Assembly: GCF_031157525.1 (NCBI RefSeq)
Contig: NZ_JAVIXR010000003.1
Span: 248,001-312,000, forward strand
Direction of reading: 5' to 3'
Source: Marinobacter sediminicola
Lineage (GTDB): Bacteria; Pseudomonadota; Gammaproteobacteria; Pseudomonadales; Oleiphilaceae
DNA length: 64,000 nucleotides
In this document: in pieces, positions 2,681 to 54,196 of the stretch
Position numbering within the stretch: position 1 is the first letter of the stretch
Layout: the number at the start of each line of letters is the position of its first letter
Position numbers and translations under genes: made by a program
Notes under the pieces: model-generated
Database searches by the model: none
The model's input: the letters and a program-made list of their open reading frames with translations, nothing else
Told to the model about the DNA's origin: nothing

Positions 2681-2920
2681 TTAGTGCTTGAGTGCACTCA
2701 TTCTGAGGGCGATCACTTCGAGACCACCTCTCAGGGTGGATAGCGTCCAGTATGTCACCAGCGCCATCAATCCTGCACCGATTACGGTGAAGGCCAAATC
2801 GTCACCGACGACTCGTTCTTTTGCCAACACCATATACATAGCCAGTGCGGCAATTAAAAGGATTTCTACGACAAAATGGAAACGGAACTTGTTACGGGCA
2901 GATCCGGATTCGTCGGACAT
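2681..2920 (-). CDS. Small two-helix membrane protein of unknown function
   Basis: Predicted 79-residue protein starting at the ATG at 2920 ([11 protein letters not shown]). It has a short charged N-terminus and two hydrophobic segments: about residues 14-33 ([16 protein letters not shown]) and 42-65 ([19 protein letters not shown]). The frame extends upstream to 2989, but that extension has no ribosome binding site and low-complexity charged sequence. I do not recognise the family. It lies between queC and a non-coding stretch, in the same direction as queC-queE, but 130 bases separate it from queC. Confidence 0.6.
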
Positions 2921-3297
2921 TTTCTTAGGTTTCAACCTCTGGGTTTCTATCAGTATGGGTGATTGGTTAGTGTACGAATTATCCCCCAACGCAACCCGGA
3001 TATCTGTACGAGTTAGTGGCTACGGACTTTCCACTACCGAAAGACACGCGCTCCTTACCAACGTCTGTAGGGGTTTGCCGCAGATCCCAAGCTATTGCAA
3101 ACGCCGGCCTAACGGATACACTACCGGATCAAATACACCAGAAATGCCGACTATGATCCGAATGATTCCACAGCTCTTGATAAACGCCGCAGCAGTCTGC
3201 CGTAAAGGCCACTGCGTGCGTGTGATGGTAGAAATTATCTAACGGCTTTCGGTCAGTTCCCGGGAGCCTTTCAAGCGACCGGGTCAGCGTCTCCAGC
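2921..3297. other. Intergenic region without a convincing gene
   Basis: About 380 bases. An open frame on the plus strand (2688-3242) runs antisense through the membrane protein gene into this region, but it has no ribosome binding site and an amino acid make-up unlike a real protein. The right-hand part must hold the promoter of the 90-residue protein at 3363. No clear -35/-10 pair was found. Confidence 0.5.
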
Positions 3298-14690: not shown

Positions 14691-16682
14691 TTAGTCTTTG
14701 GGCAACAGGTTTTCTTCTGCAAGCCGTTCGCGAATCTGGTCCAGCGCTTCCGGGTTGCCCAGGGCATCGCGGTTGTCGGCTTTGGTAGAGCCGTTGATCA
14801 GGCGGGCGACGGCCAGTTCTACTTTTTTGCCGCTGCGTGTGTAGGGGATGTCTGGCACTTGAACTATGTGTTTGGGCACGTGGCGGGGGCTGGCGCCTGT
14901 GCGGATTCGGGCTTTTAGCTGTTTCAGTAGATCGGCGCTGAGCTCCTGACCTTCGGCAGGCACTACAAACAGCACCACTTCTACGTCGCCGTCGATCTGG
15001 CGGCCGACTACCAGGCTGTCTTTTATAGCCGCTTCGGTTTCTACCTGGCGGTAGATTTCGGCGGTGCCGATTCTTACGCCGCCGGGGTTGAGGGTGGCAT
15101 CTGAGCGGCCGTAGATAATGGCACCGCCGTGTTCGGTGAATTCTATGAAATCACCGTGAGCCCATACGCCGGGGAAGGTGTCGAAGTAGGCTTCGCGATA
15201 ACGTTCGCCGTTGGCGTCGTCCCAGAATGCGACGGGCATGGAGGGCATGGGCTGGCGGCAGACGAGTTCGCCGCGCCCTTGGTCTACGGGCTTGCCGTCA
15301 TCGCCGTAGGCTACGGCGTCGACGCCGAGGAAGCGGCATTGGATTTCGCCACGGCGCACAGGCAACAGTGGTGTAGAGCCTACGAAGCAACCGCAGATGT
15401 CGGTGCCGCCAGCAATAGAGCCTAGCAGGGCTTTAGGTGCACCTTGGTTGTAGACCCAGTCGTAGTCTTCCGGGAGCAGGGGCGAGCCGGTTGAGAACAC
15501 GACTCTCAGTTTGCTCAGATCCAGGGTTTCGGCCGGTGCCATTTCAGCTTTGCGACAGCCTGCAATGAATCTTGCGCTGGTGCCGAAGTGGGTCACGCGC
15601 TCTTCGGCTACGGTGTCCCAAAGGAAGCTGAGGCTAGGGTAGCCCGGTGAGCCGTCTACCGTGATAACAGATGCGCCAGTTAGCAGCGCGGAGGCCTGCC
15701 AGTTCCACATCATCCAGCCACAGGTGGTGAAGTAGAGAAAGCGGTCATTCGGGCCTACGTCGCCGTGCAGCATGAGTTCTTTGGCGTGATTGACCAGTAG
15801 GCCGGCGGTGCCGTGTACGATGCACTTGGGTTTGCCGGTGGTGCCGGAGGAATACAGAATGTATACCGGGTGGCCGGGGTCGACGGGTGTATATGAAGGC
15901 GCTTCGCCCGCACCAAATGCAATGGCGTCGCCCCAGGTGGTTACCCGTTCACCTGTAATCGGCTCAGCGTCTGGTAGTTGCTGCACACTCACTACGCACT
16001 TCAGAGTGGGCAGGCCGGCGATCAGCTCTGCAAATTCGTTCTGGCGGGCCAGCACTTTACCGCCGTAGCCATAACCGTTCACAACAATCAGTGCAGAAGG
16101 CTCAATCTGGCCAAACCGGTCAAGAATCGCGCCCACGCCAAAATCAGGCGAAGCAGAGCTCCAGATAGCACCAAGACTGGTGGCTGCCAGCATGCCAGCG
16201 AGTGCTTCGTATCCGTTGGTGACAACGCCGGCAACCCGGTCGCCTTTTTGTATGCCTTTGCTGCGCAGGAAGGCTTCCAAAGCACCCACATCGGCTTTCA
16301 GTTCGCCATAGCTGCGGCGCAGAACGGGGCGTGTTTCACAGTAGGCCACCACGGCCTCTTCATTGGCATGCTCGCCTTCTGCATGGCGCAGCAGGTTGGC
16401 CGCAAAGTTCAGCTTCATGCCCGGGAACCACTCGGCACCCGGCATATCCCGCTTGCCCAGAACTTTGAGCGCTGGCGTTGCGCTAACAAGCCCGCAATAG
16501 TCCCAAACACTGGCCCAGAAGGTTTCAAGGTCATCAACAGACCATTGGTGCAGCGCGTGGTAATCAGCAAAGGGGCCATAGCCCTGCTCTTCCAGCCAGG
16601 TTTTGAAGCGACCCATTTGGCTATTGGCCAATTCGCCTGCCGATGGAGTCCAGACTACTGGGGACTGTTCAATAACGCTCAT
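14691..16682 (-). CDS. aacS: Acetoacetyl-CoA synthetase
   Basis: A 663-residue adenylate-forming ligase that activates acetoacetate to acetoacetyl-CoA. The AMP-binding loop is YILYSSGTTGKPKC, the adenylation motif region is YGRSDATLNPGGVRIG, and the C-terminal catalytic lysine region is TRSGKKVELAVARL. The N-terminus (YHALHQWSVDDLETFWASVW) is typical of acetoacetate rather than acetate ligases. AGGAG precedes the ATG at 16682. It is the last gene of the TRAP-bdhA-aacS operon, 16 bases after bdhA, and supplies the final step of 3-hydroxybutyrate catabolism before thiolysis. No thiolase gene is in view. Confidence 0.93.
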   Translation of the reverse strand: MSVIEQSPVVWTPSAGELANSQMGRFKTWLEEQGYGPFADYHALHQWSVDDLETFWASVWDYCGLVSATPALKVLGKRDMPGAEWFPGMKLNFAANLLRHAEGEHANEEAVVAYCETRPVLRRSYGELKADVGALEAFLRSKGIQKGDRVAGVVTNGYEALAGMLAATSLGAIWSSASPDFGVGAILDRFGQIEPSALIVVNGYGYGGKVLARQNEFAELIAGLPTLKCVVSVQQLPDAEPITGERVTTWGDAIAFGAGEAPSYTPVDPGHPVYILYSSGTTGKPKCIVHGTAGLLVNHAKELMLHGDVGPNDRFLYFTTCGWMMWNWQASALLTGASVITVDGSPGYPSLSFLWDTVAEERVTHFGTSARFIAGCRKAEMAPAETLDLSKLRVVFSTGSPLLPEDYDWVYNQGAPKALLGSIAGGTDICGCFVGSTPLLPVRRGEIQCRFLGVDAVAYGDDGKPVDQGRGELVCRQPMPSMPVAFWDDANGERYREAYFDTFPGVWAHGDFIEFTEHGGAIIYGRSDATLNPGGVRIGTAEIYRQVETEAAIKDSLVVGRQIDGDVEVVLFVVPAEGQELSADLLKQLKARIRTGASPRHVPKHIVQVPDIPYTRSGKKVELAVARLINGSTKADNRDALGNPEALDQIRERLAEENLLPKD

Positions 16683-16698: not shown

Positions 16699-17478
16699 TT
16701 ACTGCATGTGCCAGCCGTGGCTGACAACAAAAGATTGGCCTGTAAGAGCGGCTGAAGGGAAGGCCGCCAAGTGCACCGCCATTTCGGAAACATCTTCCTG
16801 GGTGGTGAATTTGCCATCTACTGTGTTTTTTAGCATCACCTTACTGATGACTTCCTCTTCGGAAATACCCAGCTCTTTCGCCTGCTCCGGTATTTGCTTA
16901 TCCACCAGTGGCGTTCTTACAAAGCCAGGGCAGATAATGTTGCTGCGAACTCCGTGCTCTGCACCCTCTTTGGCAACGGCGCGACATAATCCAAGCATAC
17001 CGTGTTTTGCTGCCACGTAAGGAGCTTTCAGGGGCGAGGCCTCGAGCGAGTGCACTGATCCCATGTACAGCATAGTGCCTCCACCATTGGCGTACATTTG
17101 CTTCAGAGCCGCACGTGTGACCAGAAACGCGCCATCCAGATGCACGTTCATCACCCGCCGCCAATCCGCATACGCCAGATTGTGTACCGGATCTATGTGC
17201 TGGATACCGGCATTCGCTACCGCAATATCCAGACCACCCCAGGCCTTTACAATGGCGGCTACGCCCTCTTCGACGGCGGCCTCATTAGTTACATCCATGG
17301 CCAATGCCATTGCGGTGCCGCCGGCTTTTTCTATGGCGTCAACGGTGTCTTGTGCACTTTCCAGCGTGAGGTCTGCCACAGCGACACGAGCACCTTCACG
17401 GCCGTAATGTTCGGCGATTGCCCGCCCAATGCCTCGCGCTGCGCCAGTAATAAGAGCGATATCGTTTTCGAGACGCAT
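16699..17478 (-). CDS. bdhA: 3-hydroxybutyrate dehydrogenase (SDR family)
   Basis: A 259-residue NAD-dependent short-chain dehydrogenase, predicted to oxidise (R)-3-hydroxybutyrate to acetoacetate. The cofactor motif is [11 protein letters not shown] lies in VANAGIQH, and the catalytic Ser and Y-x3-K are in [20 protein letters not shown]. The patterns HSLEASP and GWHMQ at the C-terminus match 3-hydroxybutyrate dehydrogenases. It sits between the TRAP permease and aacS in one operon, which agrees with the assignment. Confidence 0.92.
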
Positions 17479-17540: not shown

Positions 17541-18911
17541 TCAGGAACCGCCGTACACTTCATTTGGAAGCCAGGTCGCCAGAGGCTGAAACCAGAACAC
17601 CAATGCCAAAGCCAGAAGCTGCAGCATAATGAAAGGCAACACGCCCAGATATATGTCCCGGGTAGTAACACCCGGCGGGCATACGCCTTTGATATAGAAC
17701 AGCGAGAAGCCAACGGGGGGTGTCAGGAAGGAGGTCTGCAAACACATGGCAAACATGATGGCAAACCACACTGGCTCCACACCCATTTTGAACAGTACGG
17801 GGGCCACTAAAGGTAAAACGATCAGGGTAATCTCCACCCAGTCCAGGAAAAACCCGAGCAAAAAGGTGATAAACAGAACGGTCAACAACACACCTGTAGT
17901 GCCAAAAGGCAGGCCGGTGATGGCGCCTTCTATCACTTCGTCGCCACCCAGCCCTCGCAGCACCGAGGCAAACACTGTGGCACCGATAAAAATGCCAAAA
18001 ATGAATGCCGAGGTGCGGCTGGTCTGATAAAGGGATTCTTTCAGGGTTGCCATATCCAGACGCTTGCTGACAAAAGCCATAAGCAAGGCGCCGCCCGCAC
18101 CCACTGCAGAGGCTTCCGTGGTTGTCGCTATGCCAAAAAAGATGGAGCCGAGCACAGAAATGATCAGTGCCATGGGCGGCAAGATTGCCCAGAACACACC
18201 AAACCAGGCGCGGGCATCAAGGCGCTGCCGGTTGGTAGGCGCCGGTGCCAAATCCTTTTTGATGTAAGAGGCAATGATGATGTAGAGAATGTAAAGCATG
18301 GCGAGCATGACGCCTGGAATCAGCGCGCCCATGAACAGCTTTCCTACTGACGCATCCGAGGTACCAAGGCGATCCGCCATCAGAACCAGCATAATGCTTG
18401 GCGGCACCAGAATGCCGAGCGTTCCCACCGAGCACGCCGTGCCCACAGCCAGTGATTTGTTGTAGTTGGCCTGCATCATGGGGCCAAGGGACAACATGCC
18501 CAGCAATACCACTGAGGCGCCCACAATACCGGTTGAGGCGGCAAGCAGTACACCAACCAGCACCACCGTAATGGCATAGCCACCGCGCAGACCGCCAAGC
18601 ACTTTAACCAGGCTGTGCATTAGCTTTTCAGTAATACCAGATCGGTCCAGCATGATGCCCATGAAAATAAACATGGGTAGCGCGACCATCAGCTCATTGG
18701 CAACGATGCCATAGATTCTGGCGTCCAGAACGCCAATGGTTCCCTGCCAGGTAAACCAAAGAGGAGAATCGAGATACTCGACCATAACGTGGCCGACAAT
18801 ACCGAATATAAGACCAATACCCGCCAGTGACCAGGCAACCGGGAACCCCGAGAGCAAGAGCACCATAAAGCTGGCGAACATGGCGATAACAAGAATTGCT
18901 TCTATTCCCAT
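17541..18911 (-). CDS. dctM: TRAP transporter large permease (DctM)
   Basis: A 456-residue, roughly 12-helix membrane protein of the DctM family, which forms the substrate-translocating, Na+-coupled part of a TRAP transporter. Family patterns include [48 protein letters not shown] and [22 protein letters not shown] stands eight bases before the ATG at 18911, which is 17 bases after dctQ. Its place upstream of bdhA and aacS points to 3-hydroxybutyrate or a related hydroxy acid as substrate (inference). Confidence 0.95.
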
Positions 18912-18928: not shown

Positions 18929-19546
18929 TCAGGGATTAGGATGGCCGGCAGAGCGCCGATCATCGTAAGGAGGCTCAACAGCCCTGGGAAAACGGAATAG
19001 GTAGGTGGTGCAACGCGTGGCGCGTGACAGCAGCGCAATCATCACGAACACCAGCCCCAGAGGCAGCATACTTTTGAATATAAACCGGTAAGGCAATCCG
19101 CTAGGTGCCTGGGAATGCTCTGTGTAAATCCATGCTGTCCAGGCGTAGGGCACCAGAGCACTGATCATCAGCGCAATGATGGGCAGCGCCAGCAGCACAA
19201 TCCCCAAAAGCTCGATAATGGCCTGGGCTTTGGGGCTGAACTTCTCTTTCAGCACATCAACACGAACGTGGTCGTCCCGCACAACCGCATAGCCCAGGGT
19301 GAGCATGGTTGCAGTTCCGAAGAGGTGCCAGGACAACTCCTCAAGGGCAATAGAGCCTTGAGATAGCGCATAGCGGGAAAACACGTTGATCAAGATAACG
19401 ATCAGCACAGCAATCCATAACCAGGACGCCAGACGGCCAACAGCAACAACCAATCGATCTAGATGCCGGGATAAAGCATTGACTGGCAGCGAATCAGTAT
19501 CGAATGTCGGGGCATGCTTATCCCCTGAGACATTAGTATCGGTCAC
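18929..19546 (-). CDS. dctQ: TRAP transporter small permease (DctQ)
   Basis: A 205-residue protein with four membrane helices, the DctQ partner of DctM. The family pattern LEELSWHLFGTATMLTLGYAVVRDDHVRVDVL is recognisable in parts. The start is a GTG at 19546 with GAGG six bases upstream. It lies between the binding protein and large permease genes of the same operon. Confidence 0.93.
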   Translation of the reverse strand: MTDTNVSGDKHAPTFDTDSLPVNALSRHLDRLVVAVGRLASWLWIAVLIVILINVFSRYALSQGSIALEELSWHLFGTATMLTLGYAVVRDDHVRVDVLKEKFSPKAQAIIELLGIVLLALPIIALMISALVPYAWTAWIYTEHSQAPSGLPYRFIFKSMLPLGLVFVMIALLSRATRCTTYLFRFPRAVEPPYDDRRSAGHPNP

Positions 19547-19625: not shown

Positions 19626-20711
19626 TCAGTCGTACTTGTAGAAATCCCGTGGCAGATAGCCATTGGAGTGCCATATAGAGTGATGCTCCATAAATTCACG
19701 CTGACTGGTCAGTACGCGATTGAACATTTCATCTTTGGCAGCAATTTCATCCAACACCTCATTCGTGACCTTTTGCAGCTCACGCAGTACCGGCTCTGGC
19801 AGAGTCTGGGCGTTTACGCCTTCTTTCTCGTACTCGCGCAGTGCTGTTGGCTGGGCCCACTCACTCTGTGCAAACCCTTTAAGCGTGGCAGACTCGCAAC
19901 CCATTTCGATAAGCGCGCGGCTCTGCGGCTCCAGCTTCTCCCAAACATCTTTGTTCACCAACAGGTGGGAGGTGGTCAGAGTTTGGTGCCAACCGGGCAT
20001 GATGTAGTTTTTGATAATTTGGTCCAGGCCCAGCATCTTGTCGATGGCGGGCTGAGAAAACTCAGTTGCATCAATCGTTTTGCGCTCTAGCGCCTGATAG
20101 ATTTCGCCGCCTGGAACCATGGTTACGGAAGCGCCGAGCTTCTCCAGAACCTTGCCACCAATACCGGCAAAGCGGATTTTCAGGCCGTCAAAATCTTCCA
20201 CGCCCTTGATTGGATTAGCGAACCAGCCTGCGCCTTCAGGGCCAATGATGCTGCACAGCATGGGGTGGATGTTGCGTTTGGCATAGATTTCTTCCAGCAA
20301 CGCACGGCCATCGCCCTCGTAATACCAGGCCAGATAAGCAGGCGGTTCCATGTTGAAAGGGGCACCGGAATACAACGGCAAGGCGGGAATGGTGCCCTGA
20401 TCGTAACCAACCCAGGTGTAGCCTGCGGGGTATTTACCACCACCTACGGCATCCATGATTTCAAACGGTGGAACCAGTTCGTTCGGCTCATAGTAACGCA
20501 GCTGAATATCACCACCGGATATGGCTTTGAGATTTTCGGTCAGGTGTTTTACAGGCGTTGTGAGCCCTATAAGGTGTGAAGGGAAAGCCAGAGGCACCTG
20601 CCAGCGAACTTTTTCTGCAGCTAGAGCATTGCTGCTGACCAAGGCGCCAGTCATAAACGCAGCAGCAATGATACCCAGTGTCAAACCCGATAGCTTATGT
20701 TTGATAGACAT
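19626..20711 (-). CDS. dctP: TRAP transporter substrate-binding protein (DctP family)
   Basis: A 361-residue periplasmic binding protein. Residues 1-31 are a signal peptide ending SSNALAAEK. The mature part has the DctP/DctP7 pattern with the carboxylate-binding arginine region FDGLKIRFAGIGGKV and KTIDATEFSQPAIDKML. It resembles the branch of TRAP binding proteins annotated for mannitol/chloroaromatic or 2-oxo acids, so the sequence does not fix the ligand. The operon with bdhA and aacS suggests 3-hydroxybutyrate. It is the first gene after a sigma-54 promoter, with a palindrome-rich leader of about 180 bases. Confidence 0.93.
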   Translation of the reverse strand: MSIKHKLSGLTLGIIAAAFMTGALVSSNALAAEKVRWQVPLAFPSHLIGLTTPVKHLTENLKAISGGDIQLRYYEPNELVPPFEIMDAVGGGKYPAGYTWVGYDQGTIPALPLYSGAPFNMEPPAYLAWYYEGDGRALLEEIYAKRNIHPMLCSIIGPEGAGWFANPIKGVEDFDGLKIRFAGIGGKVLEKLGASVTMVPGGEIYQALERKTIDATEFSQPAIDKMLGLDQIIKNYIMPGWHQTLTTSHLLVNKDVWEKLEPQSRALIEMGCESATLKGFAQSEWAQPTALREYEKEGVNAQTLPEPVLRELQKVTNEVLDEIAAKDEMFNRVLTSQREFMEHHSIWHSNGYLPRDFYKYD

Positions 20712-20977: not shown

Positions 20978-20995
20978 CGTCCGGAAATCAGGACA
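20978..20995. promoter_or_regulatory. Activator-binding palindrome, proximal site for dctP
   Basis: CGTCCGGAAATCAGGACA matches TGTCC-N8-GGACA except at the first base. It lies 64 bases upstream of the sigma-54 promoter, a typical place for an enhancer site of a sigma-54 activator. Confidence 0.75.
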
Positions 20996-21040
20996 GCATT
21001 GAACTCTGGTCGTACGTGCTTGTACTGATACCAAGACACC

Positions 21041-21058
21041 TGTCCGGAAATCAGGACA
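21041..21058. promoter_or_regulatory. Activator-binding palindrome, distal site for dctP
   Basis: TGTCCGGAAATCAGGACA, a full TGTCC-N8-GGACA palindrome identical in its centre to the site at 20978. It overlaps the last codons of the sigma-54 regulator gene (stop at 21051). Confidence 0.8.
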
Positions 21059-22496
21059 TTTTTGCCAGCTTCTCGTAAAGTACCGAGCGGGAGATACCCA
21101 GTAACTTGGCCGCCTGAGTGCGGTTACCCCGGCTCGCAACCAAAGCCTCTTCAACCGCTTGGGCTTCTGCCTCAGCCAATATGCTGGCCAAGGGCCGAAT
21201 AGGGCGCGGTGTGATTCGGGAAGCTGGGCCCGCGCTGCTGCGGGGCAACACTTTGAACATGGCATCTGCATCCAGTACGCCGCCCTCCTCACTCATGGTC
21301 AGGGCTCGCTCAAGCACATTACGCAGCTCACGGATATTGCCCGGCCAATCGTAGCTGGCCAAAGCCGCTACGCCGGCATCGGTAATTTCCGCACGCATAT
21401 CCAGCCCCTCGCTAATTTCCCAAAGCAAGGTTTCGCAAAGCAACCCCAGGTCCGCAAGACGGTCCCTCAGCGGTGGTATGGGGATTTCCAGCACATTAAG
21501 CCGGTAATACAGATCTGAGCGAAAACTGCCGTCGGCAATCATCGCCTCAAGATTGCGACTGGTTGCCGCGATAACCCGGACATCAACCTCTGTCACCTTA
21601 TTCGAGCCCAGAGGCTCAACTTCGCCTTCCTGCAGAACGCGCAAAAGTTTGGCCTGAAGCGGCAATGGCATGTCGCCCACTTCGTCCAGAAACAGCGTGC
21701 CTCCGTTAGCCAGCTGAAACTTCCCTTCTCGCAGTTTGCGATCGGCACCGGTATAGGCACCCGGTGCCACACCAAAGAATTCGGCTTCCAGCAGATTGTC
21801 GGGAATCGCTGCCACGTTCACGCCCACAAACGGCTTCTCGGAGCGGCTGGATACAGAATGAATCGCTTGGGCCAGCACCTCTTTGCCAGTACCTGTTTCA
21901 CCCAGTACCAGTACAGCCATTTCACGTCCGGCGGCAAGCCGCGCGCGGCGCTTGACTTCGAGGGCTCCGGGGCTGGCGCCAACAAAATCTCCAAGGCTAT
22001 AACGCGTACCCCGGGATTTTTTTGCCAGAGCCTTGCGAGCCGCGGCCAGGTCCTGATGCAGGCGCCGGTATTTACTGACCAGGGGGGTAAGTGGTTGCAG
22101 GTCGTCGTAAAGCACAAACGCCACAGCGCCCTCAATCTCGCCGGCATTGTCATAGTATGGCAGCCGGGTAACCACTAGTTGTTGCTGTTGATACTCCATA
22201 ATATCCAGCAACAGCGGTTTGCCGGTTTCCACAACTTCAGGCATGCGGGTTTCGGGAATAACCTGGCGCACCTGGCGGCCAATCACATCTGCCGGATCTT
22301 TCAAGCCCAACAACTCGGAATAGCTCACGTTTATCCAGGTAATGCGGGACTCGCGATCAACGGCAATCGCCCCTGCGCTGGCCTCCTCAAACATGGGAAA
22401 GAGTGCTTCGATTAGCTCCCGGGTAAGCCCTTTCTTATTCTTCTCACCAAACAACTGTGCCATGTAGTGCTTACCGCCAGAGTCAGTTTCATTCAT
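21051..22496 (-). CDS. Sigma-54-dependent activator (PAS, AAA+, Fis-type HTH), HbcR-like
   Basis: A 481-residue enhancer-binding protein. About residues 30-150 form a PAS-like sensory domain (GAIAVDRESRITWINVSYSELLG). The AAA+ domain has Walker A GETGTGKE (199-206), the sigma-54 contact loop GAYTGA (246-251, with Tyr for the usual Phe) and Walker B GGTLFLDEVGD. The C-terminal helix-turn-helix is NRTQAAKLLGISRSVLYEKL. It resembles the Pseudomonas aeruginosa HbcR (PA2005) group known to activate 3-hydroxybutyrate catabolism with RpoN. It sits between the two sigma-54 promoters it most likely controls. The ligand sensed by the PAS domain is not evident. Confidence 0.93.
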   Translation of the reverse strand: MNETDSGGKHYMAQLFGEKNKKGLTRELIEALFPMFEEASAGAIAVDRESRITWINVSYSELLGLKDPADVIGRQVRQVIPETRMPEVVETGKPLLLDIMEYQQQQLVVTRLPYYDNAGEIEGAVAFVLYDDLQPLTPLVSKYRRLHQDLAAARKALAKKSRGTRYSLGDFVGASPGALEVKRRARLAAGREMAVLVLGETGTGKEVLAQAIHSVSSRSEKPFVGVNVAAIPDNLLEAEFFGVAPGAYTGADRKLREGKFQLANGGTLFLDEVGDMPLPLQAKLLRVLQEGEVEPLGSNKVTEVDVRVIAATSRNLEAMIADGSFRSDLYYRLNVLEIPIPPLRDRLADLGLLCETLLWEISEGLDMRAEITDAGVAALASYDWPGNIRELRNVLERALTMSEEGGVLDADAMFKVLPRSSAGPASRITPRPIRPLASILAEAEAQAVEEALVASRGNRTQAAKLLGISRSVLYEKLAKMS

Positions 22497-22509
22497 CGTG
22501 AAAGCCCTG

Positions 22510-22530
22510 ACATCCGGCGATGCCGGATGT
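22510..22530. repeat. Inverted repeat just upstream of the sigma-54 regulator
   Basis: ACATCCGGC and GCCGGATGT flank GAT, giving an exact 9-base inverted repeat 14 bases before the regulator start. Its spacing differs from the TGTCC-N8-GGACA sites, so it is either an autoregulatory operator of another protein or a leader hairpin. Confidence 0.5.
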
Positions 22531-22601
22531 TCTGTCAGAAGTATATGGCCCCCTCCGCAAGGTGAGCAAATGGGAGGGGACGGGGGACGGCCCGAACGCC
22601 G

Positions 22602-24633
22602 TCAATCAGGTATGATTAACTCACTACCAATCAGCCGGATAAGGTCTGCCTCTGGCGGCTGTGATGCAATCTGCGGAAGGTTGCTCTGGGCCAGCGGTGT
22701 TGCATCGCCTCGCGGCGTGGCCCGAACAACCTGGCTTGGCGGCAACGGCGTGTCGTTGGTCAAGCGATCCCAAACCAGATCCAGAGCCTGGAAATCGTAG
22801 TGATGCAGCGGCACATAGCTGGCGCCAATCGCTGGGAATCCGTTCAGAACGTCCAGGTGATGGGCGTTGAGCACTTCGTAGTAACGGAGTTCGCTGCCAA
22901 CTCCCTCCACTTGCCGGTTAAGCCCAAAATAGGGCCGGGAAGTGTGGTTGATAGGCAAAATAGCATCCGACCGCCCCGTCACAAATACAGCCGGCTTGCC
23001 GCGAAGATCCCCGGTAGCCCTGATCTCTTCAATACCATCAGCGATGGCTTCGGCTAGCTCTGCTTCAGCTCCCGTCAGCGCATCGCCAGTGATCGCATCA
23101 CGACCCAAGGCCAGACCGTGCAAGCACAACAATGCATCAAGACCATAATCCGTAAGGCCGCTGCTGGGGGATTTGCTGACAGTCAGTAGAGTCGACGGAA
23201 CCACGGCGTCATCGTAAACAATATTAACCTTTGCAGTGGGCGGAATACCGTTGCTGACTGCAAATGCTGCGGCTTCCTGAACCGGGGTAAGCGGAGTTAC
23301 TGCCCCAGTACCATCCGTCGCAGCCAGGCTAAGCCCGCACACACGATCCTCCACACCCGCGCGGCCATAGGCGTTGGCATAGGTCATGGAAATGCTCTGA
23401 GCTACGTTGGAGGCAAAGTGTATGGGAGCCTGTAACCAGCCCCTTAAGCGCCAATGAGGTGCAGATATTCTCGCCAATAGCTTGCGGGTTATACGCAGCG
23501 TTCAATGGTGCAATATCACGAATAGCCGGCGCCTGATTGGCGCAACCCTGGTACACCGCAAGTGCTGTGGTGTATTCCAGCAGGCTACGACTGTGCTCAA
23601 CAATGGGCGTATCGCTACCCTGCACAATGGTGAAATTGGTACTTACAGCCGGGTTCACGTTGGGCTCTGATACCGCCACGCCGTCAATCAACCCTTTTGT
23701 ATCCTGCTCCGCCGCGCGAACCGATGAACCACCGCCGTTGGAAACACTGGAGGCTATAACCAAAGTGTTTTCCGGCGTAATAACACGGGTGTTGTCATCA
23801 CTGCCAAACTGTTTGTTAAGCACCCAGAACCCAAACTCAACAGACTGAAGAACATGGCGCCCCCAGTCGGCTTCCGGGTTGGTTTTCGAGTGAGCATGCT
23901 TCCAGGCAAATCGATCCGGCCAATCTGCATTGAAATCATTCCGCTGGCTGGCCGTGAGATCCGCGCGAAACTGAACAGATTCATCAGTAGACGAGAGCGT
24001 ACCGTCGATACGCTGCGCGGTATTGGTTTCCAAGTTATGGGCGCCGGTGCCACTACCTTTATCGGTATAGACCACGGCACAGCCCTTTTTCAGACCCCAC
24101 TCGCCGGCTGTACCAATCGCCCCATAAATTCCCCGGGAGCCGGACGAAGGAGCGGTGATCATGCATGGGTTTTGAACATCAAAGCTGTCAGGAACCTGAG
24201 CCATAACCGTAACAGGCACACTACTGCCGTTAACGGTCATAAACGCCAGGTATTCATGGCCCGGAATCAGGCCTTCTGTTTGATTGCCGACACCGGGGCC
24301 AAAAAACTCGCCATAACCACCGCCTGGGGATGTATCCACAAGCGCCCGGTAGTTATTGTAAATCGCAAGCTGACGCAGTTCAGCCGGAGAGGGGTTAAGC
24401 GGATCAGAAAACGCAGGTGCTGTGGCACTGTCAAGGCCCGTAGCTCCGAGGCCGGCTGTTAGAAGATCGTCAGTCACGCCGTCATATTGGGTGTGCAGTA
24501 TGTCACCCTGGATAAATTCAGGCGGTTGGTTTACCTCAGGTGGGTTGTTGTTATTGCTGTCACTACTGTCATTGCAGGCACTCAGGGCGATGCCTGTCAC
24601 GCCGATTAGCGTACAGATCATGATACGTTTCAT
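22602..24633 (-). pseudogene. 3-hydroxybutyrate-oligomer hydrolase, disrupted by an out-of-frame deletion
   Basis: Two overlapping frames together make one D-(-)-3-hydroxybutyrate oligomer hydrolase. The first part (ATG 24633 with AAGGA upstream, in-frame stop at 23329) has a lipoprotein signal (TGIALSAC) and the nucleophile region SNGGGSS. The second part (from about 23435 to 22602, another frame) has [11 protein letters not shown] and the catalytic-His region [11 protein letters not shown]. At the junction, [12 protein letters not shown] of frame one and [10 protein letters not shown] of frame two are read from the same bases (about 23428-23445). Family members as I recall them have some 20-25 residues between these motifs, so a segment of roughly 60-75 bases, not a multiple of three, appears to be missing. 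A sigma-54 promoter and two activator palindromes upstream are intact. An assembly error is the alternative. Confidence 0.8.
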
Positions 24634-24668
24634 GGGTCGTTCCTTGTTTTTTGTTGTTAAGAACACGT

Positions 24669-24683
24669 CCGGGCCCAAGGCCC
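24669..24683. repeat. Leader hairpin of the oligomer hydrolase
   Basis: CGGGCC and GGCCCG separated by CAA form a compact hairpin between the sigma-54 promoter and the hydrolase start. Its place mirrors the palindromes in the dctP leader. Confidence 0.4.
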
Positions 24684-24697
24684 GAATCAACCCACAT

Positions 24698-24712
24698 GCG
24701 CTTCCTGTGCCA
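24698..24712 (-). promoter_or_regulatory. Sigma-54 promoter of the oligomer hydrolase
   Basis: Reading leftward, TGGCACAGGAAGCGC has a perfect -24 element TGGCAC, with GG and GC ten bases apart. It lies 65 bases before the hydrolase ATG and 63 bases from the proximal activator palindrome. Confidence 0.8.
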
Positions 24713-24774
24713 TTATTTTATCTTTATGTTTTTATTAGTAATTTTTATAATTCATCGAATACACTGACGGATTT

Positions 24775-24792
24775 TGTCCGACTTCCCGGACA
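24775..24792. promoter_or_regulatory. Activator-binding palindrome, proximal site for the hydrolase
   Basis: TGTCCGACTTCCCGGACA, an exact TGTCC-N8-GGACA site 63 bases upstream of the sigma-54 promoter. This is nearly the same distance as at dctP, although the central eight bases differ. Confidence 0.75.
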
Positions 24793-24860
24793 CTGCCATC
24801 CACGGGACAAACGAACAAAGGAGGGGGAGTAGTACTAACGAGCGGCGGCTTCAGCTTATT

Positions 24861-24878
24861 TGTCCTGAAAACAGGACA
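24861..24878. promoter_or_regulatory. Activator-binding palindrome, distal site for the hydrolase
   Basis: TGTCCTGAAAACAGGACA, a full palindrome whose centre resembles that of the dctP sites. A half-site TCGGACA follows at 24891. Confidence 0.78.
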
Positions 24879-24907
24879 CCGTAGCGATTTTCGGACATTC
24901 GGGAAAA

Positions 24908-25270
24908 TTAACCGATTCGGATAAACGGCAGCAGGCTAAAACCGGCAATCACAATAATTGCCAAACAGGCCGCCAGCGTGCGCACGGGTTTCTGCCGAAA
25001 CATGTACCAGATACCGCCGCCCTTGCCCTCCAGGCGTCTGGTTTCATAGGCTTCACGCTGGCTTTGTGTGCGCTGGTACTGGTATTCATGGAGTATGGCT
25101 TTGGCCCTTTCGGCTTCTTCCGTATCGTGTACCCAGAAGCCACCCATACTGATACCCCAGCGACTAGGTGGGGTCTCGTAATAGCGCACGTCGTGGGCCT
25201 CGAACAAAGCCCGGATTTCTTCGGCTTCATCATCTGGCACGTGGCGCAAATTCATCAAATGGTGGGGCAT
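24908..25270 (-). CDS. Small C-terminally anchored membrane protein (DUF6164-like)
   Basis: A 120-residue protein. Residues about 5-60 form a compact alpha-beta domain (LRHVPDDEAEEIRALFEAHDV, RWGISMGGFWVHD), followed by a charged helix and one membrane segment near the C-terminus (TLAACLAIIVIAGFSLLPFI). It resembles the family I recall as DUF6164, similar in outline to signal-transducing DUF2007 proteins. Function unknown. It is divergent from the DUF2868 gene, with 87 bases between starts. Confidence 0.8.
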   Translation of the reverse strand: MPHHLMNLRHVPDDEAEEIRALFEAHDVRYYETPPSRWGISMGGFWVHDTEEAERAKAILHEYQYQRTQSQREAYETRRLEGKGGGIWYMFRQKPVRTLAACLAIIVIAGFSLLPFIRIG

Positions 25271-29972: not shown

Positions 29973-31148
29973 TTAGATGTAGTAATCCTTTAATGGGGGG
30001 AACCCATTAAACTCCACGGCACTGTAGGTTGTTGTATAGGCTCCAGTGGACAGCCAGTACATGCGATCACCGATAGCCAGATTCAGTGGCAGCGGGTATT
30101 TGTGGTGCTCGTACATAATGTCCGCACTGTCACAGGTCGGGCCCGCAATAACACAGTCTTCGCCTTCACCTTTCTTATCCGTCCAGATTGGAAACTTGAT
30201 CGCTTCATCCAGCGTCTCGATCAGACCATTAAACTTGCCCACATCCGTAAACACCCAACGGTGCAGCGCTGTACGGGATTTACGGGCGATCAAAACCACC
30301 TCGCTCACCAGAACACCGGCGTTGGAAATCAACGAACGACCGGGCTCGATAATGATTTCCGGGAGATCATCGCCAAAGTCTTCCTTCAGGAAGCGAGTAA
30401 TTTCAGAGGCGTATACACCCAACTCGTTGGTCCGGTTGATGTAGTTAGCCGGAAAACCACCGCCCATATTGATCATTTTCAATTCGATGCCGTCTTCTTC
30501 TTTCAATCGCTCGAAAATGACCTTTACCTTGTTCAGTGCCGAGTCCCAGGCACCAATTTCACGCTGCTGGGAGCCCACGTGGAAGGACACACCGTAAGGC
30601 ACCAGGCCAAGATCGCGGGCCAGAATCAGCAGGTCCATGGCCATGTCATTCTCACAGCCAAACTTCCGGGAAAGAGGCCAATCTGCTGTTTGCGTGCCAT
30701 CGGTCAGAACACGCACGTAAATCTTCGAGCCAGGCGCCGCCTTGGCAATGTTACGCAAATCCGCCTCGGAGTCCGTGGCGAACATACGAACACCCTTCTC
30801 ATAAAAAGTGCGAATGTCCCGCGCCTTTTTTATGGTGTTGCCGTAGCTGATCCGATCGCCGGTCACGCCCAGCCCCATCACCTTTTCCAACTCATACACC
30901 GACGCGATATCAAAGCTCGCACCCTTGTCCCGCAGCATGGTCAGAACCTGCGGAGCCGGGTTGGCTTTCACTGCGTAATACACGTTCGCGTAAGGAAAAC
31001 CTTCCACCAACTCGTCGTACTGACGATTAATAGTGGCGGTATCAATCACCACAAAGGGTGTTTCCTTGGTATCCGCAAACGCCTTGATGCGCTCAAAGGT
31101 CTCGGCAGTGTAGTAATCGGCGATGTTAGCGTTGGCTGACTCGGTCAT
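29973..31148 (-). CDS. Fold-III PLP-dependent ornithine/lysine-type decarboxylase
   Basis: A 391-residue enzyme of the alanine-racemase-fold decarboxylases (eukaryote-type ornithine decarboxylase, lysine/ornithine decarboxylase of Pseudomonas and Vibrio). The PLP lysine is Lys61 in YYAVKANPAP. Further motifs are FHVGSQ, NMGGGFPANY, IIEPGRS, and GPTCDSAD with the catalytic Cys. It would make putrescine or cadaverine; the sequence as read does not decide which. The start is the ATG at 31148 behind a G-rich site; a frame reaching 31484 is non-coding and includes repeat copy 2. Confidence 0.93.
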   Translation of the reverse strand: MTESANANIADYYTAETFERIKAFADTKETPFVVIDTATINRQYDELVEGFPYANVYYAVKANPAPQVLTMLRDKGASFDIASVYELEKVMGLGVTGDRISYGNTIKKARDIRTFYEKGVRMFATDSEADLRNIAKAAPGSKIYVRVLTDGTQTADWPLSRKFGCENDMAMDLLILARDLGLVPYGVSFHVGSQQREIGAWDSALNKVKVIFERLKEEDGIELKMINMGGGFPANYINRTNELGVYASEITRFLKEDFGDDLPEIIIEPGRSLISNAGVLVSEVVLIARKSRTALHRWVFTDVGKFNGLIETLDEAIKFPIWTDKKGEGEDCVIAGPTCDSADIMYEHHKYPLPLNLAIGDRMYWLSTGAYTTTYSAVEFNGFPPLKDYYI

Positions 31149-31316
31149 GGATGGTGGTCCCCCCAGGGGTAATAAAGCAATATTCAATAACGGGAACCAA
31201 ACCAAAATTGGCCCCCTGCAATGGGCGCGATAATCAGGCTTTTCCCACCCCACAGATATGAGCACATCTACCCATAATTTGTACAGCGACCTGCTCTCAA
31301 GAATGGCCGTCAGGTC

Positions 31317-31399
31317 GAGTAGCCGGGGCCCTTTCTGTCGGGAAAAGATGTCTGAGCGCAGCGAGTTGTTTTTCCCAGAAGAAAGGGCCCCGGCTACTC
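31317..31399 (+). repeat. Palindromic element family 1, copy 2
   Basis: Perfect 19-base outer arms (GAGTAGCCGGGGCCCTTTC and its complement), inner arms GGGAAAA and TTTTCCC, and core ATGTCTGAGCGCAGCGAG. It sits in the 335-base gap between two divergent genes (decarboxylase and cti), where no gene ends, so it is not simply a terminator. The rest of that gap holds the two promoters. Confidence 0.88.
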
Positions 31400-31447
31400 G
31401 GCCTCCCCCCAAATGAAGAGGCCTTAGCGAACACCTATTCAACCGTC

Positions 31448-31453
31448 TATAAT
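31448..31453 (+). promoter_or_regulatory. Possible -10 element of cti
   Basis: TATAAT, 30 bases before the cti ATG. No good -35 hexamer is visible at the usual spacing, so confidence is low. Confidence 0.35.
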
Positions 31454-31483
31454 TCACAAAACTCAAACGACTACAGGCCCCCA

Positions 31484-33838
31484 ATGGCGAGAATCATCTC
31501 TGCAGCGCTCCTGGCCCTGCTATTTCTGGCAGGCTGCGCCGAAAACACCACGCCGCCCACATTCAAACAGGCACTGCCCACTGCAACTCAACAACCCGTC
31601 AGCTTCAACGACGACGTTCGTCCCATTGTCGAAGCCAAGTGCCTGGCCTGCCATAGCTGCTTTGACGCCCCTTGCCAGCTCAAGATGGAGTACTCCGACG
31701 GCCTGATTCGTGGTGCCCACAAAAATCCGGTTTACAACGGCGCTCGTTTTGACCCCCAGCAAACCACACGCCTGGGCATTGATGCCCATACCGAACAACA
31801 ATGGCGAGAGATGGGCTTTTACTCCGTGCTGGCGAGAGGCGACCAAACCCGCAGCCTGTTCGAGAACATGATTCGCCTGGGCAAACAGTATGAGTTTGCG
31901 CCCAACAGCAAACTGCCCGACAACATCGAACTGGGCCTGTCCCGCGCTAACCAGTGTGTCAGCAACGAAGATTTCTCCGACTACGCCAGCGACCATCCCT
32001 ATGAAGGCATGCCACTGGCCGTTACCGGCCTCACCGACGACGAATACGCCACACTCACTGGCTGGATTAATCAGGGTGGCGCTATCAGCCCATTGGTTAC
32101 CAAGCCGAATGACACTGAGCTGAATCACATCAACCGCTGGGAAGCCTGGCTTAATGATCGTAGCCCCCGCCAGCAATTGATCAGCCGCTGGATTTACGAA
32201 CATCTTTATCTGGCGCACCTGTACTTTGAGGATGAGGGCGCAGATACCCGCTTCTTTGAAATTGTGCGCTCCCACACCGTGCCGGGCACACCCGTTGATA
32301 TAATTGCGACCCGACGCCCCAACGACGACCCCGAAGGCCCAGTGTATTACCGCCTGCGCCCGGTTGCCGGCAGCATTGTGCACAAACGCCACATTACCTT
32401 CGCATTCGGGGAGAAGCCGTTTGAACGCACCCGGGAGCTGTTTTACGCCGACGACTGGCAAGTAGACGCCCTGCCGGACTACAGCCGGGATAGTCGCGCC
32501 AACCCGTTTGTGACCTTCGCAGACATACCGGCAAAAGCCCGCTACCAGTTCATGCTGGATAACGCAGAGTATTTCACACGCACCTTCATTCGCGGGCCGG
32601 TATGCCGCGGCCAGATTGCCACCGACGTGATCCGGGATCACTTTTGGGTTAGCTACCACGATCCGGAAGACGATCTTTACGTAACCGATGCGGAGTATCG
32701 CGACAAGGTAAGCCCATTACTGGCTCTGCCTGGTCAGGACAGCGCACTGCTGGATCTGGGGGACAACTGGCTCACCTATCAAGGCAAACGCAACCGCTAC
32801 CATGAACTGCGAAATCAGGCCTACCGAGAGGCTTACCCAAAAGGTGCCTCCCTCGACCATATCTGGGATGGCGACGGCTACAATACCAACGCCCTGTTAA
32901 CGGTGTTCCGCCACCACAATAATGCCTCAGTACAGAGGGGGCTCATCGGCCAAGTGCCGTTAACCAGTTGGTGGATGGATTACCCGCTGCTTGAACGCAC
33001 CTATTACGAACTGGTGGTGAACTTCGACGTGTTCGGCAATGTGGCCCACCAAGTCCAAACGCGCCTCTACTTTGACCTGATCCGAAACGGCGGTGAACAG
33101 GACTACCTCAGGCTGATACCGCCAAGGGAACGCAATCGGGTTTTGCGTAATTGGTATCAGGATTCAGGTTCGCTAAAACTGGATTACAGCTACGCCAGCA
33201 TGAACGATACGGCCCCCTCACAGGTGCCCTATGTCACTTCGGCTTTCAATGAAGAGCTGGGCGCTCGCATGCTGTTAAAATTCCACGAACTGAATGCCGA
33301 ACGGGATGACCCTATCAACCGCTGTGGCGGCAGTGACTGTGGCCGAAAAGACGAACCAGAGTGGATTCGGGAAGCCGATCAGGTGCTGTCTGAGTTAGCT
33401 GCTACCCGGGCCGAATTCCTCCCTGCAATCAACTACGTGCCAGACGTTACCTTTTTGCGGGTTCACAACGGAGACGGGCAGCGCACGGTTTACACGGTTA
33501 TCCGCGACCGCGCCCACAGCAATGTCGCCTTCCTGCTGGGAGAAGATTCACGCTACCAGCCGGAGAACGACAAGCTGACCATCTACCCGGGAATCATCGG
33601 CAGCTACCCCAACTTCATCTTCGACATTCCCGCCGCGCAGCTCGGCTTGTTCAAAGACCGGATGAAGGCCCTGAAGGCTGAGGAACCAAAAGCGTTTGAA
33701 TCTCTGGTGAGCGTATGGGGCGTACGCCGCACCCACCGGCAGTTCTGGGAAATTCTTCACGACATTACCGCCTGGCACCGTGAGCACCAGCCCCTGCAGG
33801 CAGGAATTTTCGACATTAACCGTTACAAAAACCTGTAA
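31484..33838 (+). CDS. cti: Fatty acid cis/trans isomerase Cti
   Basis: A 784-residue periplasmic heme protein that converts cis- to trans-unsaturated phospholipid acyl chains, a rapid response to solvents and heat in Pseudomonas, Vibrio and relatives. The c-type heme site CLACH is at residues 53-57. Typical family blocks are VYNGARFDPQQTTRLGID, TDDEYATLTGWINQGG and VWGVRRTHRQFWEILHD. The N-terminus (LLFLAGC, Cys18) looks like a lipoprotein signal, so it may be lipid-anchored rather than freely soluble. It is transcribed alone, divergent from the decarboxylase. Confidence 0.95.
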   Translation: MARIISAALLALLFLAGCAENTTPPTFKQALPTATQQPVSFNDDVRPIVEAKCLACHSCFDAPCQLKMEYSDGLIRGAHKNPVYNGARFDPQQTTRLGIDAHTEQQWREMGFYSVLARGDQTRSLFENMIRLGKQYEFAPNSKLPDNIELGLSRANQCVSNEDFSDYASDHPYEGMPLAVTGLTDDEYATLTGWINQGGAISPLVTKPNDTELNHINRWEAWLNDRSPRQQLISRWIYEHLYLAHLYFEDEGADTRFFEIVRSHTVPGTPVDIIATRRPNDDPEGPVYYRLRPVAGSIVHKRHITFAFGEKPFERTRELFYADDWQVDALPDYSRDSRANPFVTFADIPAKARYQFMLDNAEYFTRTFIRGPVCRGQIATDVIRDHFWVSYHDPEDDLYVTDAEYRDKVSPLLALPGQDSALLDLGDNWLTYQGKRNRYHELRNQAYREAYPKGASLDHIWDGDGYNTNALLTVFRHHNNASVQRGLIGQVPLTSWWMDYPLLERTYYELVVNFDVFGNVAHQVQTRLYFDLIRNGGEQDYLRLIPPRERNRVLRNWYQDSGSLKLDYSYASMNDTAPSQVPYVTSAFNEELGARMLLKFHELNAERDDPINRCGGSDCGRKDEPEWIREADQVLSELAATRAEFLPAINYVPDVTFLRVHNGDGQRTVYTVIRDRAHSNVAFLLGEDSRYQPENDKLTIYPGIIGSYPNFIFDIPAAQLGLFKDRMKALKAEEPKAFESLVSVWGVRRTHRQFWEILHDITAWHREHQPLQAGIFDINRYKNL

Positions 33839-35216: not shown

Positions 35217-37715
35217 TTATTGGCGGGGCTTTCGTTTAACGCCCTGCTGGGCAACAGCGGTTAGCGGGTCTTCTGGCCAGGGATGTTTGGGGTAGCGGCC
35301 ACGGGTGTCTTTGCGCACCTGGGGGTAAACGTTAACCCAAAAGCTGGCCAGATCCGCCGTGACTGCCAGCGGCCTCTGGGCCGGGGAAAGCAGGTGAATC
35401 AGCACTGGCATCTTGCCACCAGCAACTGTCGGCGTAGTGATCCAACCAAACAGGGCCTGCAACTTGGCCGCCAATACTGGGCCATTCTCCGCGGTGTAAT
35501 CCAGGGTAACGGAGCTGCCGGTGGGAATGGTCAGGCTGGTTGGAGCCAGTTCCCCCAGCTGCTGCTGTTGAGGATAGTCCAGCAAGCTGCTCAGGGCATT
35601 CTGAAGGTTCAGTTTAGCCAGATCAGACCAGCGGCTGATGCCGCTCAGGAAGGGCCCAAGCCATTCTTCCAGAGAGTCTGTCAGGGCTTGATCACTGACA
35701 TCCGGCCACTGCCCGGGAAAATGCCTGGCCAGTAAAGCGACTCGCGCCTGCCACTGCCGGGCAGCAGGCGTCCAAGGCAGGTTATCCAGCCCTCTGCGCC
35801 GAACGGCGGCGAGTATGCCCTGCTGAATCAGTTCCGGCGAGGGTTTTGCCAGCGGTTTCTCACCGAGGAGTAACGCCCCCAGTCGGCGCGTTTTGCGGGC
35901 GATTACTGTGCCACGTTTATCATCCCATTCCGCTTCATCCTGCTCACGAATATGGGCCGCAAGATCGGCTTTAAGCGTCATCAGGTCCACCGGGGCCGCC
36001 AGATAAATCCTTGCTTCTCTGGCCTTGCCGTCCAGGTCTGCGGCCACCAGCCATTCGTGCCGCGCCAGCCCATCGTCGTCTCGCAGAAGTGCGCCTTTGC
36101 CGTTGCTGAGCTGGTAGCGTGGTGTATCTCCGGGGCGGCGTTTGCCGATACGGTCCGGGTAAGCGAGCGCCAATAAACGCCCCACTTCCGTGGCCGTTGG
36201 CATGAGTTCCTGTTCGTTTTTCCCATGGTCACCAGACGCTGACAAACGCTTGGCCTGCTGACGCAGCGCCTGCAGCCGATGCGGATCTATACGTTGAGAA
36301 CCTCGTTCTCCACGGAGGGCGCGAATGCGTTCATGCATGTCGGCACCGGCACCCGGGCCCAGCAAGTCCCTGTCTTCCAGTAACGCGGCCAGCTCCGCCG
36401 CCAGCTTGCCCAGCCCAAGCGATCGCCCGAGTATAACCATGTGCGCCAACCTGGGGTGAATGCCCAAGGCCCGAGCTGACTTGCCGTGCTCAGTGATTGC
36501 GCCTTCATCATCCAGCATGTCCAGCCACTGCAGAAGTTCCACCGCTTGCTGCCAATGGGCGGGTGGGGGCGGGTCAATCCATACCAGGTTATCCGGCGTT
36601 CTGGCGCCCCACTGCGCCAATTCGAGCACCAGTGGCGCCAGATCGGCTTCGCGAATCTCCGGTGGTGTGAATTCCGCCAGCCCGAACTGTTCCGACTCAC
36701 TCCATAGCCGGTAACACACACCCGGCTCCACCCGGCCCGCACGACCTTTGCGTTGCTCTGCGGAGGCTTTGGAAACCCGACCTGTAATCAACCGTGTCAT
36801 TCCACTATTTGGGTCAAACACAGCACGGCGCTGCTGGCCGCTGTCCACCACCACCCGCACGCCTTCAATGGTCAGACTGGTTTCTGCGATGGCGGTTGCC
36901 AGCACGACTTTGCGAGTGCCCTCTGCAGCCGGCGCAATAGCCTGGTCCTGCTCTGCCGCTTTCAGGTTGCCGAACAGAGGCGCGATGACAACGTTCGAGG
37001 CCACCTGCCCGGCCAACGCTTGAGCCACCCGGTGAATCTCTCCTGCGCCCGGCAGGAACACCAGCACTGAGCCTGGCTGCTGCGCCAGAGCTTCGGTAAC
37101 CACCGCCACGACTTGGTCCAACAGCCTTGGGTAGCGCTGCGTGCTTGGCACCGGGCGATAGAACACTTCCACAGGAAAGGCTCGCCCTTCGCTGCTTAAT
37201 ACGGGTACATCGCCGAGCAGGCGGGCAATGGGGGCGGTGTCCAGTGTGGCGGACATCACCAACACTCGCAGATCTTCCCTTAGCGCTTCTTGTGTCTCTC
37301 GCACCAGTGCCAGCCCGAGATCGGCCTGAAGGGAGCGTTCGTGGAATTCATCGAAGAGCACAGCGGCGTACTCTTCCAGCATGGGATCGCTCTGGATCAG
37401 CCGGGTGAGTATGCCTTCGGTCACAACCTCTATGCGTGTCAGGCCAGATATTTTGGTGTCCAGGCGCGTGCGGTAACCAATAGTTTGCCCGGGCTGCTCA
37501 CCCAGCCGCGATGCCATGAATCTGGCCGCGGAACGAGCTGCCAAACGCCGGGGTTCAAGCATCAGGATTTTACGGCCTTGCAGCCAAGGTTCAGCCAGCA
37601 GTGCCAAGGGTACCCGCGTAGTTTTACCTGCGCCCGGGGGTGCCTGCAGCAGGGCCGTGGTGGCTTGCTGCAGGGTGTGTTTTAGCTCTGGGAGGATGTG
37701 GTCTATTGGGAGCAC
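35217..37715 (-). CDS. hrpB: ATP-dependent helicase HrpB
   Basis: A DExH-box helicase of about 832 residues. The walker motif is APPGAGKTTRVPL, the DExH box is LFDEFHERSLQADL, and further motifs are VMSATLDT, ATAIAETSLTIEGV and QRKGRAGRVEPGVCYRLW. The C-terminal part is the HrpB-specific domain ending WPEDPLTAVAQQGVKRK. The start is uncertain: the GTG at 37715, six bases after the upstream MFS stop, best matches family N-termini (LPIDHILPELKHTL), while TTG codons at 37724 and 37751 are alternatives. HrpB is an RNA helicase of unclear cellular role. Confidence 0.92.
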   Translation of the reverse strand: MLPIDHILPELKHTLQQATTALLQAPPGAGKTTRVPLALLAEPWLQGRKILMLEPRRLAARSAARFMASRLGEQPGQTIGYRTRLDTKISGLTRIEVVTEGILTRLIQSDPMLEEYAAVLFDEFHERSLQADLGLALVRETQEALREDLRVLVMSATLDTAPIARLLGDVPVLSSEGRAFPVEVFYRPVPSTQRYPRLLDQVVAVVTEALAQQPGSVLVFLPGAGEIHRVAQALAGQVASNVVIAPLFGNLKAAEQDQAIAPAAEGTRKVVLATAIAETSLTIEGVRVVVDSGQQRRAVFDPNSGMTRLITGRVSKASAEQRKGRAGRVEPGVCYRLWSESEQFGLAEFTPPEIREADLAPLVLELAQWGARTPDNLVWIDPPPPAHWQQAVELLQWLDMLDDEGAITEHGKSARALGIHPRLAHMVILGRSLGLGKLAAELAALLEDRDLLGPGAGADMHERIRALRGERGSQRIDPHRLQALRQQAKRLSASGDHGKNEQELMPTATEVGRLLALAYPDRIGKRRPGDTPRYQLSNGKGALLRDDDGLARHEWLVAADLDGKAREARIYLAAPVDLMTLKADLAAHIREQDEAEWDDKRGTVIARKTRRLGALLLGEKPLAKPSPELIQQGILAAVRRRGLDNLPWTPAARQWQARVALLARHFPGQWPDVSDQALTDSLEEWLGPFLSGISRWSDLAKLNLQNALSSLLDYPQQQQLGELAPTSLTIPTGSSVTLDYTAENGPVLAAKLQALFGWITTPTVAGGKMPVLIHLLSPAQRPLAVTADLASFWVNVYPQVRKDTRGRYPKHPWPEDPLTAVAQQGVKRKPRQ

Positions 37716-37720
37716 GGCTA

Positions 37721-47840: not shown

Positions 47841-48045
47841 ACTGTGTCTCCACAGAGTATTATTCTTGTCGGATTTTGCGTAATCCCTCTGCTCTTTCTC
47901 CGGCGCTCGCATTCGCCAGAAATTCGCAGAGTGAAAGCCTGCTTATGGATACATCACCATCGAGTATAGACACAGATCAAAAAAAGACTAAAAAGTCATT
48001 AAACCCAAAACGACTAAACACAACCCTTTAAGAAGCAAATCGAAT

Positions 48046-54194: not shown

Positions 54195-54196
54195 TC

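Follow-up and report, generated by a model that had tools for sequence, protein, structure and literature searches.

An 83-base deletion splits a 3-hydroxybutyrate oligomer hydrolase gene in a Marinobacter genome

In a 64,000-nucleotide stretch of DNA (the window) from the marine bacterium Marinobacter sediminicola, the gene of a 3-hydroxybutyrate (3HB) oligomer hydrolase, an enzyme that breaks short fragments of a natural bioplastic down to monomers, is interrupted, and we conclude with high confidence that it is a pseudogene, probably a recent one, of the Marinobacter hydrolase of family PF10605, formed by one 83-base deletion in a strain that should still be able to use the monomer. The strain should not be annotated as using 3HB oligomers via the PF10605 hydrolase.

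The deletion and its two reading frames

As the initial annotation of the window had claimed, the hydrolase is split between two frames near position 23425: the same minus-strand bases, CTGGTTACAGGCTCCC, are read as LVTG in the frame that opens with the upstream ATG (24633) and as LQAP in that of the downstream half. The lesion was defined by reference to an intact relative (locus L031, NZ_CANLBK010000003.1, genome G060), which is 97% identical to the window in DNA at the hydrolase region and carries the gene in one frame of 704 codons, open from the same ATG as in the window. Window positions 22400-25000 aligned with L031 (2.6 kb) with one indel, a gap of 83 bases absent from the window, and because 83 is not a multiple of three, the second half lies in the +1 frame. 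Three placements of this gap are equally good, with 23427, 23426 or 23425 as the last base retained. The resulting features are as follows.

23424-23427, minus strand: deletion junction; 83 bases of L031 missing, placement ambiguous by two bases
23329-24633, minus strand: hydrolase first fragment; ATG at 24633, after the junction out of frame to a stop at 23329
22602-23424, minus strand: hydrolase second fragment; shifted by +1 from the frame of the first fragment and open from a TTG at 23477

The cause proposed initially, one out-of-frame deletion for which a single-base indel would not suffice, is borne out by this single gap, and a single-base frameshift was rejected on the same alignment. 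The sizes proposed with it stood in part: the 20-25 residues expected between the halves agree with the 25 found between LVTG and LLAP in L031, but the 60-75 bases expected to be missing were too few because the window reads LVTG and LQAP from overlapping bases. None of the 80 further genomes in which the gene has a match shows the same junction within a single frame.

Slipped mispairing between imperfect repeats produces short deletions and, through them, pseudogenes. The flanks of the junction, CAGGCTCCGATAC and CTGGCGCCCATAC, form an imperfect repeat that agrees at 10 of 13 bases and shares only two bases exactly. With a statistic that was picked after the junction had been seen, we found a flank match as good as this in 191 of 111,152 sampled breakpoint pairs 30-199 bases apart within the same gene, and in 24 of the 11,841 pairs that share exactly two bases. 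This suggests that the 83 bases were lost by slipped mispairing, and the locus is like other pseudogenes that arose from short deletions between imperfect repeats, with the frame lost, the rest intact and no notable difference.

The genome of the window (G000) is a draft of 41 contigs and 3.88 Mb, which leaves room for an assembly or consensus fault in which the organism's gene is intact and the draft has lost the 83 bases. We consider this improbable. The junction shares only two bases exactly, hence no k-mer collapse, and the lost segment does not occur at any other place in the assembly, the closest match being 23 bases at 91% (E 0.32). Different internal deletions of the same gene are present in four other Marinobacter genomes. 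In addition, the relative has counterparts of 44 among 47 window ORFs, nearly all of them taken from a list of 75. Apart from the two hydrolase halves these comprise 42 ORFs, not one of which is divided between frames, and poor consensus quality of the window is disfavoured by this result. For ORFs 2688-3242, 29973-31484 and 46716-47912 the versions of the relative hit a stop without a change of frame; the last is open in the window and has an internal stop in its G060 counterpart. The initial annotation had left the choice between a recent event and an assembly fault; the latter is unlikely on these grounds, and the former draws weak support from the substitutions described below. With an intact homologue in a close relative, the same synteny and a disrupting lesion in the window genome, the locus has the hallmarks of a pseudogene.

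Over 59,427 aligned bases the window and the relative diverge by about 6.1%, and because of this divergence the window strain and G060 probably belong to different species; the genome set we used holds one genome per species. The deletion may be private to this one isolate.

Hydrolase fragments and predicted effect on the protein

Both halves match Pfam PF10605 (3HBOH), in agreement with the gene family first assigned. The first fragment covers profile positions 3-398 (E 2.5e-152, 509.1 bits), is 98% identical to L031 residues 1-405, and contains LSAC, which we take to be a lipoprotein-type signal motif; the second covers positions 423-688 (E 6.7e-85, 286.2 bits) and is 97% identical to L031 residues 428-704. 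Each passes the cut-off of 27 bits, and 24 profile positions between them are unmatched. A single continuous frame is absent and the two frames are joined by the deletion; we therefore regard the locus as a pseudogene of PF10605 and not as a working member. Compared with L031, neither half has further stops or indels, and the window's genome has no second hydrolase copy, only the one locus. The intact L031 hydrolase had no match among the NCBIfam models at E 0.001, and a sequence search of solved structures gave nothing credible (best E 0.049, a haemoglobin chain). Set beside PF10605 3HB-oligomer hydrolases, the window locus is alike in that its two fragments jointly cover most of the profile (the L031 gene is full length) and in that 3HB dehydrogenase, ligase and importer genes adjoin it, and differs in that the window copy is broken. 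The Ralstonia eutropha H16 enzymes with 3HB-oligomer hydrolase activity are named PhaY1 and PhaY2 in passages of PMC3430594, and we liken them to the window hydrolase by the name of the activity, not by PF10605 membership.

In alpha/beta hydrolases the nucleophile is expected at a strand-helix turn. In an AlphaFold2 model of the L031 hydrolase (21-sequence alignment, mean pLDDT 84.4, pTM 0.87), S298 lies at such a turn, and D584 and H620 follow later strands in the second half. All three are invariant in 21 of 21 aligned sequences, and from this conservation and the model we predict S298/D584/H620 to be the catalytic triad. The predicted S298 falls in the first fragment and D584 and H620 in the second, so neither chain has the full predicted set. 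A fold search returned mainly alpha/beta hydrolases, with MHETase 6qz2 ranking first (E 1.2e-7). Placing the active site from these fold matches was rejected because the superposition is too poor (TM-scores about 0.3, rmsd 14).

In the mechanism that we propose, slipped mispairing between the two flanking repeats would have shifted the frame and removed residues about 403-430, that is about 28 residues including a predicted helix at 405-419. Translation from the normal start would yield a shortened lipoprotein that retains the predicted nucleophile serine but has neither the predicted Asp nor the predicted His. The remainder could be translated only if initiation took place within the gene, and would then have no signal sequence. 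Oligomer cutting by the hydrolase, the sole family member found in the genome, would be lost, and the monomer would still be used through the activator, the TRAP importer, 3HB dehydrogenase and acetoacetate-CoA ligase.

The absence of other stops and indels from both halves is also compatible with a gene that still functions, as would be the case if both frames were translated, by frameshifting or from an internal start, and the halves associated into a split working enzyme; the substitutions, too, are still mainly synonymous. We nevertheless judge a split enzyme very unlikely, as it would be missing about 28 residues with a predicted helix, its second half would be without a signal peptide, and the other genomes show differing deletions or full absence of the gene and no kept split.

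Neighbouring genes, regulatory sites and age of the lesion

The pseudogene lies on the minus strand in the gene order DUF6164, broken hydrolase, sigma-54 activator, DctP, two permeases, 3HB dehydrogenase and acetoacetate-CoA ligase. The genes around the hydrolase are the following.

24908-25270, minus strand: DUF6164 gene (PF19661), upstream synteny anchor
21051-22496, minus strand: sigma-54-dependent activator (PAS, AAA+, Fis-type HTH by Pfam), intact
19626-20711, minus strand: TRAP transporter binding protein DctP (PF03480, E 8.5e-39), intact
18929-19546, minus strand: TRAP small permease (NCBIfam NF007374, 40 bits, below the cut-off of 260), intact
17541-18911, minus strand: TRAP large permease (TIGR00786, 269.6 bits, cut-off 268.45), intact
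16699-17478, minus strand: 3-hydroxybutyrate dehydrogenase (NF009931, 359.3 bits, cut-off 340), intact
14691-16682, minus strand: acetoacetate-CoA ligase (TIGR01217, 794.7 bits, cut-off 520.9), intact

Jointly, this gene set would convert 3HB oligomer to acetoacetyl-CoA, and from the neighbourhood we infer that the substrate of the TRAP importer is 3HB. Passages of PMC5877338 give PHA depolymerase, oligomer hydrolase and 3HB dehydrogenase as steps of the pathway and do not treat a Marinobacter oligomer hydrolase; the first two steps also appear in passages of PMC7830162. Between the ligase and isocitrate dehydrogenase genes, at window position 14650, G060 has about 240 extra bases.

Upstream of the hydrolase and of dctP we noted the following candidate regulatory elements.

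24861-24878, unstranded: exact palindrome TGTCC-N8-GGACA, likely activator site 1; begins 245 bases before the ATG
24775-24792, unstranded: exact palindrome TGTCC-N8-GGACA, likely activator site 2; begins 159 bases before the ATG
24700-24712, minus strand: putative sigma-54-like element TGGCACAGGAAGC with -24/-12 spacing
20978-21058, unstranded: two more palindromes before dctP; 21041-21058 is exact and overlaps the activator gene end, 20978-20995 has one mismatch

The two hydrolase palindromes and TGGCACAGGAAGC are identical in L031, consistent with the earlier description of the promoter and both activator sites as intact. The window holds six palindromes with at most one mismatch versus 1.84 expected, and six or more occurred in 1 of 100 shuffles. 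Among 30 loci of relatives (L086-L115), at least one exact palindrome lies within 450 bases of the hydrolase start in 21 and two in four, and TGGCACAGGATGC is found 77-100 bases before the start in eight. A scan with the general sigma-54 consensus was without power (135 matches versus 159 expected). No exact palindrome was found at the four other broken hydrolase loci, one of which (L130) is without the gene start, so that its true promoter lies outside the view. The palindromes upstream of dctP suggest that it forms one regulon with the hydrolase. Another exact TGTCC-N8-GGACA palindrome, at 37238-37255 inside ORF 35217-37751, is probably due to chance.

The initial annotation had read a recent event from the intact promoter. 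This argument is weak: the age of the event cannot be read from preserved promoter sites, because the close relatives G040 and G022 keep similar sites without any coding sequence. Both genomes have lost the entire hydrolase coding sequence; ahead of the activator gene they retain a palindrome at 195-196 bases, which is exact in G040 and has one mismatch in G022, and a sigma-54-like element at 115 bases. BLAST gave no alignment of this interval with that of the window, and it is from position and motif that we read these sites as the old hydrolase promoter, which may serve the activator as well. Among 30 hydrolase-minus genomes, only 2 show a scar that retains palindrome and sigma-54-like element together.

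When L032 and nine more relatives served as outgroups to assign substitutions to branches (five codons unassignable), these comprised 7 nonsynonymous and 15 synonymous codons on the window branch and 3 and 16 on the L031 branch, with a neutral expectation of 2.3-2.9 to 1; by itself, the difference between the two branches does not reach significance (Fisher p 0.29). If the nonsynonymous excess reflects decay, the neutral share of the window branch is estimated at 0.10-0.15 (range 0.01-0.39). The substitutions thus weakly favour a recent lesion.

Hydrolase loss across Marinobacter

We surveyed 124 Marinobacter genomes for the hydrolase (E 0.001), the activator (E 1e-100) and acetoacetate-CoA ligase (E 1e-200) and found matches in 81, 114 and 118 genomes, respectively; the activator is present in all 81 hydrolase carriers and in 33 of the 43 genomes without hydrolase. 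Apart from the window's genome, 72 of the carriers have one open frame through the region, four are broken elsewhere in the gene, and four were set aside (G045 and G111 for contig ends, G055 for an activator that is also frameshifted, G091 for a frameshift near residue 110-120). By approximate sizes, taken from BLAST ends against references 73-95% identical, G070 lost about 122 bases with a 9-base overlap at the junction, G002 lost 868 and about 82 bases, G099 has two deletions, and G090, whose assembly is 58% complete, lost about 759 bases in frame.

With the window included, 5 of 77 hydrolase copies are broken versus 0 of 111 activator copies (p 0.011) and 1 of 116 ligase copies (p 0.038), with kinship ignored; without G090 the count is 4 of 76 (p 0.026 versus the activator). 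The activator count was judged from match spans after G055, G036 and G059 were dropped, and the ligase count was made after G055 and G036 were dropped, with G068 (inner TGA) counted as intact. The comparison between genes is rough, as the thresholds differ and strongly broken activator or ligase copies could escape it (10 and 6 genomes without a match). In G035, which is also without hydrolase, the ligase match (contig C4, 311619-312824) is cut to residues 260-661 and has an internal TAG.

Within 1.5 kb upstream of the activator, no hydrolase remnants were found in 30 of the 33 hydrolase-minus genomes with an activator, and the DUF6164 gene lies within 1.5 kb of the activator gene in 26 of the 30. 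A tree of the activator gene comprised 94 loci, from 57 of the 72 intact carriers, 30 of the 33 genomes without hydrolase, the five broken ones and two unclear ones, and placed the window as sister to its intact relative (SH-aLRT 100). Intact and lost states require at least 21 changes on it, compared with 28 on average and never fewer than 22 in 100 shuffles; it is the tree of a gene and not of the species, with many poorly resolved branches, and the changes could include gains. The window locus is a case of ordinary gene decay, one of repeated losses in Marinobacter.

Across the genus, the presence of the hydrolase follows that of a PHB depolymerase, judged by family PF10503 alone: 31 of the 81 hydrolase carriers are above the PF10503 cut-off versus 3 of the 43 others (p 0.0001). 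None of the five broken genomes, the window's included, has a PF10503 match above the cut-off, and the difference between intact and broken carriers (29 of 72 versus 0 of 5) is not significant (p 0.15). Among 16 independent pairs on the activator tree, on average 6.6 followed the same direction and 0.1 the opposite one (median p 0.016, range 0.004-0.22). Passages of PMC7142370 describe the recombinant production of the extracellular PHB depolymerase of M. algicola and cite the PHB depolymerase of Marinobacter sp. NK-1.

We tentatively propose, as a possible reading that we would stop short of calling probable, that the hydrolase is repeatedly lost and the import and catabolism of the monomer are kept, that its retention tracks an organism's own PHB depolymerase, that strains which do not depolymerise become monomer scavengers, and that the window shows this switch soon after the event. 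The pattern resembles the Black Queen or scavenger idea, in which an exported enzyme is lost and uptake is kept, in that Marinobacter has lost the hydrolase repeatedly and kept the importer and catabolism genes. However, simple loss of use explains it equally well because hydrolase presence also follows depolymerase presence. If the genus pattern is true, close strains stand at several stages of losing an exported PHB-breakdown enzyme, and Marinobacter would be useful for testing which organisms supply monomer to which in seawater.

At some hydrolase-minus loci, a lipoprotein-like alpha/beta hydrolase (about 300 residues, with HGGGW and GFSSG recognized by eye) lies between the DUF6164 and activator genes on the opposite strand.

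L154-L156, L158, L160, L161, L164-L168, L177 and L180: esterase upstream of the activator

This esterase occupies 13 of the 17 hydrolase-minus loci examined, namely those of the 30 with a long interval or without a DUF6164 hit, and could be taken to have replaced the hydrolase functionally, making its loss neutral; we rejected this as highly improbable, since among the 67 of 124 genomes with an esterase match at E 1e-40, none of them the window's, it is similarly frequent with the hydrolase (46 of 81) and without it (21 of 43; p 0.45).

Elsewhere in the window, a 4.4-kb stretch (50225-54687) is without a counterpart at the matching place in G060 and holds a cupredoxin-like ORF (below the Pfam cut-off), a GGDEF-EAL protein, a DUF3034 protein and a globin-like ORF.
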